NCBI GenBank assembly: GCA_028139135.1
Contig: JAOINB010000002.1
Coordinates: forward strand, 82,412 to 146,411
DNA from: Betaproteobacteria bacterium
GTDB lineage: Bacteria > Pseudomonadota > Gammaproteobacteria > Burkholderiales > Burkholderiaceae_A
Direction of reading: 5' to 3'
DNA length: 64,000 nucleotides
The first letter of the stretch is position 1; each line of letters opens with the position of its first letter. The notes below the pieces were generated by a model, which saw only the letters and a program-made list of their open reading frames with translations, had not been told where the DNA came from and did not search any database. The position numbers and the translations under genes were made by a program. Positions 1,634-5,867 of this stretch are shown here, in pieces.

Positions 1634-2599
1634 TCACTGGGCATAATACGGCGTTACGGGCCAGACAGAGGGGTCTGACGGGATAACGCTATGTTTCACT
1701 GCCCAGACGTACCAACTATCAACAACAGTTCCTGTTAATAGGATTCCTATTCCTCCAGTTATGCAGACCAACGCTGCAAACCACCATAACCACCTGTGAA
1801 CAGATTCCATGGTTGCATTAAAGCCCATAGTCCATCTCCAGAATAACGCAGCGCGTTCAGATGCCGTTCCTCTATCAACTATTTGCTCAATCTCCCTATC
1901 TCCTCCAAACCTACTAACGGCAAGAATTGTTGCACCGTGCATTGCAGCGAGTAATGCTGCCCCGTAGAGAAATGCTATCGAAAGCATATGGAACGGATTC
2001 CAAAAAAGGTTTCCGTATCTTATCGAAAATGTTTGTGTCCATTCCAGGTGAGAAAAGATACCATATGGCACTGCTTCGCTCCAGTTTCCCATTAATATAG
2101 GGCGCAAAAGCCCTAAAACCAGAAAAAGCCAAATTGCCGCGGCGAAGCCCCATGCAACATGTGTTCCCATACCCATTGCTAGAGCCCTTCTGTACATTCT
2201 AAACCACCACAAAAGAACTGAAGCCGTAAGAAAGAATCCAGTCATTAAGAACCAACCGCCTTCTGCTAGAGGCGGAAAACCTAATCCATATTTAGCATCT
2301 GGGGGATTTAGTGAAAGCCAAAACATTTGTCTCACAAATTCGATAACATTGTAATCGACCTGAGCTAAGTAGTTCATTCCAATAATCGAAAACGCTATCG
2401 CAAAACAGATTGCCGATCCTACTCCCAAAAAACCAAGATAAATCGGTCCGATTTGGGCGTTACCTATCCAACCCATCAACGATGAGTGCCATGGGGTAGT
2501 AACCCTCTCTCTAGTATCTCTGTCCCTATCCAGCGGCACCCCTGGATACGCAGGAGCCTGAACTTGGACTTGTGTAAATAAATTTTGATATTCTGCCAT
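1634..2599 (-). CDS. pufM: Photosynthetic reaction centre M subunit
   Basis: 321 aa, e.g. [13 protein letters not shown]..., [40 protein letters not shown]. Confidence 0.98.
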
Positions 2600-2621: not shown

Positions 2622-3497
2622 TCAAGAACTCTCGTATGGTTTCATTGTTGGATAAAGACTTCCATCAATTGGATAATTCCAAATTGGTAATTCTAACCAC
2701 CAACCCCACCAATCTTGCCAATTACCAACCCAGAAAGGACCGCTTATTACTATACAAACCGCACTAAAAAAGCCGGATGCAAGTGCTAGATACAGCAGTA
2801 ATCTGTGTATACCTAGCGTACCAATCGAATAGCCAATTGAATCTCTAAAAAAAGTATCCTCGTGCTCTGGAGTTTTTACCGGCTCCCCTTTCTGGGGATT
2901 AGTTGCGGATAAAATCAAACCTCCATGCAAGGCTGCAGCTAGTGAGGTTGCAAAAAAGAATGTTATCGCCAACATATGGGCTGGATTCCAATGAAACCAG
3001 ACAAATTGATAACCAACGTTAGATACCCATTGAAGGTGACTCATTATCCCGTAAGGAAAGCCATGTCCCCAAGCACCTAGCAACAGTGGTCTAAAAACTA
3101 CTAGTGTTACATAAGCAAATATAGCGAAACCAAATGCCACCGGAACATGATATCCAATCCCTAACTTTCGACATATCTCAACTTCTCTCAATGCCCATGA
3201 ACCAAAAGCACCTACAGCACACACGGTTATTACCTGCCAAAGGCCACCCTCTGCCATTGGAGCAAGACCAAGACCATATTTGACATCAGGTGGATTAATA
3301 CTTATTTGCCAAAGATTCCATGTCGGGCCCATAGCCGCACCCCACAAGATTAACGCAGTACCGAGGAACGCGAAAAATATAGTTGTTACTCCAAAAAAAC
3401 CAACGTAAAACGGACCTACCCAAAAATCAAATAGATCTCCACCTACGAGGGTTCCACCTCGAATCCTATATTTTTTTTCAAAACTTAACATTGCCAT
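2622..3497 (-). CDS. pufL: Photosynthetic reaction centre L subunit
   Basis: [36 protein letters not shown]..., [13 protein letters not shown]. Confidence 0.98.
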
Positions 3498-3531: not shown

Positions 3532-3552
3532 GCAGGGGCTTAAAGCCCCTGC
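3532..3552 (-). other. pufA-pufL intercistronic hairpin GCAGGGGC-TTAAA-GCCCCTGC
   Basis: Perfect 8-bp GC-rich stem, 5-nt loop, between pufA stop and pufL start. Confidence 0.8.
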
Positions 3553-3571: not shown

Positions 3572-3781
3572 TTATCGTTTTTCAGAAGCTTGAGCAACAG
3601 CTGCTGGCTGATTTAGCCCAGCTTCGCCCATCATGATTTCCGACTGGCTTTTTCCATCTAACCAGTTAAAACGAACGGTACTTAACAAAATAAAGTGAAT
3701 CATTGCCGCCAAAGCGAACAAGAACACACCCTGGATCACCATTGCCCTCAACGGGTCAAATAATTTCCATACTCTCCACAT
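3572..3781 (-). CDS. pufA: Light-harvesting LH1 alpha subunit
   Basis: MWRVWKLFDPLRAMVIQGVFLFALAAMIHFILLSTVRFNWLDG: LH1 alpha signature with A-x-x-x-H and post-TM Trp. Confidence 0.96.
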   Translation of the reverse strand: MWRVWKLFDPLRAMVIQGVFLFALAAMIHFILLSTVRFNWLDGKSQSEIMMGEAGLNQPAAVAQASEKR

Positions 3782-3794
3782 ATTTAAACTCCTT

Positions 3795-4034
3795 CTATGT
3801 TAAATGAGACATTAGTGTATAAACTGCTGATCTAACGTCGCTCAATAACGATGAACTTCCTTCTGCGCCAGGCAACCAGGAACGCCACGGAAGCCGTAAA
3901 CAAGTCGACAGAACTGCTATTAACAGAAATACCAAAAATGTTATCCAGAAAATAATGGAAAATCTAAATGCATCTCCACTCGGCTGTTTATCGGCAACCG
4001 AGGTAATTGAGCTTTGACTAGATAATGCTTCCAT
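3795..4034 (-). CDS. Small single-TM protein of 79 aa between pufB and pufA (PufQ-like candidate)
   Basis: Strong SD (AAAGGAGGAATGAAATG); one TM segment FSIIFWITFLVFLLIAVLSTCLRL; lacks LH1 alpha/beta His motif; position inside puf operon. Confidence 0.7.
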   Translation of the reverse strand: MEALSSQSSITSVADKQPSGDAFRFSIIFWITFLVFLLIAVLSTCLRLPWRSWLPGAEGSSSLLSDVRSAVYTLMSHLT

Positions 4035-4078: not shown

Positions 4079-4228
4079 TTAATAGAACCATGGACGCCAA
4101 GCCCATACGAGTATGTGGGCAACAACGGCAATAGCCGTAAAGCCAACTAAGCCCTGCATGTAAAACGTATGGAATTCCTGGGCTTCTTCATCGGTAAGTC
4201 CTGAGATAGAACCTGAAGTCTCACTCAT
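4079..4228 (-). CDS. pufB: Light-harvesting LH1 beta subunit (49 aa, absent from ORF track)
   Basis: Translated by hand: [60 protein letters not shown]. Confidence 0.96.
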
Positions 4229-4313
4229 GATTTACACCTCCTTGAAATGGCCAATAGGCCGTCGCCGCACTGGTGCCCGCGGCATGGGCAGTCGCGACCC
4301 CACGTCGCGGCAT
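4221..4313 (-). CDS. Putative 30-aa leader ORF overlapping pufB start (pufK-like candidate)
   Basis: Translated by hand: [30 protein letters not shown]; stop overlaps pufB start region; GC-rich codons atypical of this genome; no strong SD. Confidence 0.4.
4249..4309 (-). promoter_or_regulatory. GC-rich cluster of three hairpins in pufB leader
   Basis: Inverted repeats GGCC-AATA-GGCC (4249-4260), TGCCC-N7-GGGCA (4274-4290), CGCGAC-CCCAC-GTCGCG (4293-4309). Confidence 0.6.
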
Positions 4314-4373: not shown

Positions 4374-5867
4374 TCATACTTTTTCCTCTGCATTTTGGAC
4401 CGCAGATCTTTCGCTATTTAAATTCAAATATTCCATCACCATAAATTCTGTAATTTCTGATAAACCCTTTGCTTTACAATCCATTTCTAATTTTTCTCTC
4501 AATTTTTTCGCTCTAGAGATTTGAACCAATATTGGTTCTTTTTCAAGATATTTATTCAAAACACTTTCTGCATTTCTTTCCCAGCGGACATTTGAATGAG
4601 CCTCTCTAGATTCTGGGCTTTTTGTTTTTGTAATTGGCGCCGCTAAATCAAGTTCAGTTCCTAAAGGTAAAACATGGAACAAGGAATCGAAAAGCGAATT
4701 ACAAAACTCCTGAAGGATATATGTTGCACCAGCATATCCTACGAATGGCGTTCCTGTATGTCTCCTTACGATTGACCCGGGAAAGGATGAAGGTATAAAA
4801 GCATTTTTAGAATTAATTTCTGCAAGGTACATTCTTTCGTTAATACTACCGAACGTTACTAAGGGCGTACCATTATGTATTAAAGCCCTTATCTCCTCAT
4901 TATTACTTTTACCTCCCGCTTTTCGTGATCGAGCAAATTTACACTGAAAACCAAGTTCATTTTGTAAATAATTTTTAATCCCTCTCGTATATGTCTCATT
5001 AGCAACAACTGCAAATGTTGCAGTCCCAAAAAAATCTTGAGTTACCGACCTCCAGAGGTCCCAAATCGGCTTCAATGTTGTGTGTTTCTCGGTTTCGATG
5101 AATTCGTTTGCATCTAACTTTAATATTGATGCTAATTTCTTTAAAAATAACGTTGTGCTCTCCATTCCAATAGGAGCTTGTAAGTAAGGTTTTCCGAGAA
5201 GTTCGCAAAGGCCTCGCCCATATTCACGATAAAGGCAAATATTTATATCTGCTTCTGATAATTTATAAATCTCCTTTAAATCTGTTCCTAATGGAAACAC
5301 TAAATTGGTTTTCACTCCTAAACCATCTAATAACCTTTTAATCTCTGCTAAATCGCTATTTTGATTAAACATCCCATAAGCAGGACCAATAATATTTGCA
5401 GTGGGTGCATCTTCCGGTTTCTTTTGTACCACTTTCTTTACATTTCGCGAACCAAACTCTCGCCACAACCATACTAGAGCTCTATCGGCTGCCTGCCACT
5501 GATCTTCGTCTATTGTCCTTGGTAAAAATCTTTTTAAATTAGTTCCCTCAGGAGTCACACCACCACCTATCATTTCAGCAATAGAACCTGTGACAACTAC
5601 TGATGGTTGTTTTGGGTCAAGTACTTTATGTGCTCTCTTCATAGCACCTTCAGTTCCATTTTTATTTAATTCATCTTCAGATAATCCTGTAACTACGATA
5701 GGTAGTTCATGGGGTGGCAAACCATCCGTATAGTGTAAAACAGAAGTTACAGGCAAATTCTCACATCCAACTGGTCCGTCAATTACAACCTGAAGACCTT
5801 TTACCGCAGTAAAAACATATACAGCACCCCAATATCCGCCTGCTCTATCATGATCGATAATCAACAC
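4374..5867 (-). CDS. bchZ: Chlorophyllide a reductase subunit Z
   Basis: [62 protein letters not shown]; order bchX-Y-Z-puf. Confidence 0.97.

Follow-up and report, generated by a model that had tools for sequence, protein, structure and literature searches.

The 64,000-nucleotide stretch of DNA from a marine betaproteobacterium analysed here (the window) carries, between pufB and pufA, a small gene, ORF X, whose product belongs, by profile comparison, with the LH1 beta chains, above all with those that are C-terminally tailed, but lacks the His that ligates bacteriochlorophyll (BChl). X may well be a BChl-free, LH1-beta-type structural subunit of the RC-LH1 complex that carries a periplasmic tail. 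This reading rests on three features taken together: X is a beta relative without the ligand His, it lies in a pufB-X-pufA unit, and it has a tail where PufB has none. Accessory proteins of RC-LH1 govern quinone passage through the antenna ring as well as ring building, and some of them were overlooked until structures were solved. One such candidate is X, which occurs in a large group of phototrophs of fresh and marine waters.

ORF X is a conserved gene of the puf locus

The gene order on the minus strand is bchZ, pufB, ORF X, pufA, pufL, pufM. The features used below are:

1634..2599, minus strand: pufM (TIGR01115)
2622..3497, minus strand: pufL (TIGR01157)
3532..3552, minus strand: hairpin between pufA and pufL, GCAGGGGCU-UUA-AGCCCCUGC (RNA fold)
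3572..3781, minus strand: pufA, LH1 alpha (NCBIfam NF040861, 8.5e-18)
3795..4034, minus strand: ORF X, 79 codons, 79 aa, open reading frame with Shine-Dalgarno, LH1-beta-like without ligand His
ORF X, residues about 19-53: predicted transmembrane (TM) helix (AF2 secondary structure, low confidence, pLDDT 63.6)
ORF X, residues 63-78: predicted tail helix (AF2 secondary structure, low confidence, pLDDT 63.6)
4079..4228, minus strand: pufB, LH1 beta, 49 aa (NCBIfam NF040862, 3.8e-24)
4248..4309, minus strand: GC-rich leader upstream of pufB with three hairpins (4293-4309, 4264-4283 and 4248-4261)
4374..5867, minus strand: bchZ, a long ORF directly upstream of the pufB leader, named from its position and its similarity to annotated bchZ genes in named records that share this order

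The ORF list and the sequence bear out the original prediction of a 79-aa ORF with a single TM segment between pufB and pufA, in its coordinates, length and strand as well as in its strong Shine-Dalgarno (AAAGGAGGAATGAAATG) and single hydrophobic helix. X is a real gene, since its relatives are conserved in 21 loci of a genome contig collection, all from betaproteobacterial or unnamed records, and are under purifying selection (dN/dS about 0.09-0.19 within the clade). The pufB of the window stops right after W-R-P-W-F-Y and is thus without a tail. The 145-nt gap between bchZ and pufB holds no pufQ, as had been claimed, and the PufQ model PF05398 found no match in the whole genome (an incomplete assembly, 86%) even at E<=10; the relatives agree.

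Downstream of pufM, on the minus strand, lies an azurin gene (1028-1507; TIGR02695, 6.7e-40), also present in two other loci (L032 and L033); its product may supply electrons to the reaction centre. No pufC was seen after pufM, where the azurin gene sits.

Hairpins delimit a pufB-X-pufA unit

In other purple bacteria the pufB-pufA segment forms a stable LH1 message. Of the 52 distinct X loci examined, every one has a comparable hairpin after pufA (-17 to -36 kcal/mol), whereas folds between pufB and X were of -8.5 kcal/mol or weaker, none being comparable. At the other end, the pufB leader hairpins are conserved in 15 Burkholderiales loci, and 11 of their 18 pairs show compensatory changes; an Rfam scan of the window gave only a tRNA and no match at this leader. 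Taken together, the hairpin after pufA, the weak folds between pufB and X and the leader hairpins place X within the segment that corresponds to the stable LH1 message. Because X sits in this hairpin-bounded unit, it is probably expressed at an LH1-like level, as operon structure and the mRNA of another species suggest. That species is Roseateles depolymerans, whose major puf mRNA, of 1 kb, is a co-transcript of pufB, ORF74 and pufA, the three loci most reduced in its SP70 mutant (PMC10037100).

X is related to LH1 beta chains

A phmmer search of PDB sequences with X retrieved LH1 beta chains (8z81_B, 7.5e-9; 7xxf_B, 2.3e-7; 9m8m_B, 1.7e-6), and a profile of 19 X members reached the beta chain 8z81_B at 9.9e-14. 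As this profile search matched ordinary beta chains only, no solved chain in the PDB is an X, and it revealed no structure of a core complex that contains one. All direct matches of X were LH1 beta chains, with no unrelated family among them; against Pfam and NCBIfam no model came above cut-off, the pufB model being weakly touched by some relatives. In profile-profile comparison (hhalign), X aligned with tailed beta chains at 99.5% over 69 columns and with tailless ones at 96%, against 1% for LH1 alpha, used as control, which rules out LH1 alpha as the ancestor of X. Reversed profiles gave at most 2% for X, and in 100 TM-preserving column shuffles for each of five pairs the real score was never reached.

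In a tree built from only 75 columns and with long branches, X forms one clade (99/93) and groups with beta in another (100/99), apart from PufQ and the small ORFs that occupy the PufQ position between bchZ and pufB. X is sister to all beta in this 75-column tree, and a recent pufB duplication inside Burkholderiales is therefore unsupported. The AF2 model of X alone supports no more than two helices; it is too weak for use in structure comparison, and Foldseek gave no match to it in the PDB.

The pigment ligand is lost and the tail is kept

Residues were counted in an alignment of 57 X and 68 beta sequences. The BChl-ligating His, invariant in beta (68/68), occurs in none of the 57 X sequences, where the position holds Gln (44), Thr (6), Ser (4) or, in the rest, Phe, Gly or Leu; the clade of the window has Thr. 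The N-terminal His (His -18) is likewise found in all 68 beta but in only 4 of the 57 X, and the EAxEFH segment, a feature of LH1 beta, is lacking in X. In contrast, the W-R-x-W that follows the helix is retained, W+4 being mostly lost. The original prediction that X lacks the BChl-ligating His motif of LH1 subunits holds for the His ligand, whereas this beta motif is still there. X ends in an amphipathic tail of about 25 residues, whose hydrophobic moment (0.35) was taken as equal to that of long beta chains (0.36), as against 0.23 for the PufQ-position ORFs.

X and PufB exchange the tail

The distribution of X was surveyed in 399 genomes of the order Burkholderiales, of which 48 had an LHC match; we read 46 of them as carrying an LH1 locus and the other two as having LH2-type genes alone. 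Of the 46, 38 contain X. Outside the LHC-bearing genomes X gave a single hit, short and marginal, in G095 (E 9.6e-4). All 98 scorable X loci have the order pufB-X-pufA, and in 99 of 99 X loci PufB is tailless, ending within three residues of W-R-P-W, while X carries the tail; these loci are non-independent, several coming from the same genome. X had been described as an unexpected insertion, but pufB-X-pufA proves to be the usual order in Burkholderiales. Contiguous pufBA in close relatives, named beforehand as the observation that would speak against X, did not occur in the gene-order survey.

The eight genomes with an LH1 locus but without X are of two kinds. Five have a tailed PufB (G053, G272, G301, G187 and G201), and three have a tailless PufB together with a small ORF between bchZ and pufB (G092, G209 and G239). 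Both states coexist in one genus (g31), where G053, G272 and G301 have a tailed PufB without X and G140, G178, G357 and G382 a tailless PufB with X. The sampled Burkholderiales with an LH1 locus can thus be said to have one such tail-bearing protein, be it PufB, X or the upstream ORF. Chromatiales-type loci break the rule, some having a tailed beta plus an upstream ORF. The five Burkholderiales with a tailed PufB and no X also mean that X is dispensable as a separate gene.

In one locus (L049), X (1541-1762) is followed by pufA, pufL and pufM but not preceded by pufB, and its neighbour is a divergent transporter-like gene. The pufA of this locus is unusually divergent, and its genome, a partial assembly, gave one pufA-type match only.

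A possible remote link to PufQ

The original prediction had offered two readings of X, a displaced PufQ-like protein or a new LH1-associated accessory polypeptide. For the former, PF05398 matched none of the X members at E<=10, and X lies not between bchZ and pufB but between pufB and pufA in 98 of 98 loci; what stood was a possible remote kinship. In profile comparison, X scored about 83% with PufQ (hhalign, 83.5% over 39 columns) and 98% with the PufQ-position ORFs, or 96% when only ORFs chosen by position were used. These ORFs in turn scored 93-95% with PufQ and 96-98% with tailed beta. With a profile of them (A2), 39 whole Burkholderiales genomes were searched; the profile includes three ORFs first noticed by their likeness to X and is biased to that extent. 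Its best match was the PufQ-position ORF itself in G092, G209 and G239, tailed beta in the five genomes without X that have one, and X in nearly all others, tailless beta being slightly above X in G178 and G357. In the tree (75 columns, long branches), PufQ groups with part of the PufQ-position ORFs and X with beta.

Two PufQ-position ORFs were noted on plasmids: an unannotated one in Methylobacterium aquaticum (L124, about 2.05-2.27 kb) and one called hypothetical in Candidatus Thiodictyon syntrophicum (L125, 2998-3222).

These relationships leave some room for a wider view, to which we lean slightly less than to the subunit reading itself: LH1 beta, X, the unannotated PufQ-position ORFs and PufQ could form one superfamily, in which an antenna beta chain was repeatedly turned into a photosystem accessory after loss of the pigment ligand, X being the form kept in the LH1 expression unit. 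If true, the link would give the regulator PufQ an origin.

Possible roles of X

The reading as an LH1-associated accessory polypeptide is the better supported of the two, as X, encoded in the LH1 unit, is related to LH1 beta but has no ligand His. In the mechanism that we propose, X would be synthesised in LH1-like amounts, inserted with beta topology, its N-terminus cytoplasmic, and packed, a helix without pigment, into the LH1 ring or against it. Its amphipathic tail helix would lie on the periplasmic side and serve as the PufB tail does in other purple bacteria, and the unpigmented helix could stabilise the ring and/or shape quinone pores, like gamma polypeptides. Two observations weigh against a pigment-free subunit: X is also akin to the PufQ-position ORFs, which may be assembly factors, and in five of the sampled Burkholderiales X is missing and PufB is tailed.

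Since profile comparison points to remote kinship with the PufQ-position ORFs and with PufQ, an assembly role of the PufQ kind stays a rival. X would then be a small membrane protein for porphyrin flux or for BChl delivery as LH1 assembles, its gene having shifted from a site ahead of pufB to its present one; we consider this unlikely. Such a role would fit the loss of BChl, down to 6% of wild type, upon PufQ deletion in R. sphaeroides (PMC5725709), the likeness of the PufQ-position ORFs to both X and PufQ, the A2 best matches, which are mostly X, tailed beta or a PufQ-position ORF, and the finding that within Burkholderiales a PufQ-position ORF was seen only in the three X-less genomes mentioned. 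However, no X member matches PF05398, the tree puts X with beta and apart from PufQ and the PufQ-position ORFs, X is part of the LH1 expression unit whereas pufQ stands ahead of pufB, and the function would be missing in the tailed-beta Burkholderiales, which have neither X nor a PufQ-position ORF.

Loss of the ligand His from a protein of beta ancestry would break the pigment ring, and in Rhodobacter PufX and protein-Y hold the ring open for quinone traffic (PMC10214105); X might likewise be a single-copy ring interrupter in the manner of PufX or protein-W, a pigmentless helix leaving a quinone gap. This seems improbable, as a protein encoded within the LH1 unit would be expected in many copies, not one, and PufX is encoded after pufM and considered a relative of the cytochrome subunit, not of beta (PMC9640540). 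It is more improbable still that X binds BChl through Gln at the ligand position: Gln is frequent there and W-R-x-W is kept, but the other 13 of the 57 sequences, including the clade of the window with its Thr, have Thr, Ser, Phe, Gly or Leu, and W+4 is mostly lost.

Comparison with known systems

Counterparts of X in cultured species make its role directly testable, and genus g31, with the tail now on PufB and now on X, offers a natural experiment on tail function. Open-access papers gave nothing relevant on PDB entries 8Z81-8Z83 and none containing the phrase 'between pufB and pufA'. An uncharacterised ORF at this site is nevertheless on record: ORF74 of Roseateles depolymerans (RD2015_RS05155), like X, lies between pufB and pufA and is co-transcribed with them (PMC10037100). 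Its length, 74, is that of many X members, and locus order and length suggest that ORF74 is X.

Tailed PufB, as found in several Burkholderiales, in Chromatiales-type loci and in Rhodopila globiformis (7XXF), resembles X in the 69-column alignment, the W-R-x-W, the amphipathic C-terminal tail and the shared operon. X differs from it in having neither the BChl-ligating His nor the GLTxxEAxEFH segment, in the nearly constant loss of the N-terminal His, and in forming a separate clade beside ordinary pufB. PufQ and the PufQ-position ORFs are, like X, small single-TM proteins of the puf operon without a ligand His and with possible remote profile kinship, but they are encoded upstream of pufB, whereas X lies between pufB and pufA and on the beta side of the tree. 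PufX, protein-W and protein-Y are accessory TM proteins of RC-LH1, as proposed for X, yet of other ancestry and at other gene positions (PufX after pufM). A precedent for the role proposed for X, an unpigmented beta-associated ring helix, is given by the LH1 gamma and gamma-like polypeptides of Blastochloris and Rhodopila globiformis. In the latter, eleven gamma-like polypeptides lie between the beta chains, with a proposed role in stabilising the ring and restricting its quinone pores (PMC9640540); unlike X they are very short, with 22 residues, and have the opposite orientation and a gene outside the puf cluster (PMC9640540), and the likeness is one of role, no homology being claimed.
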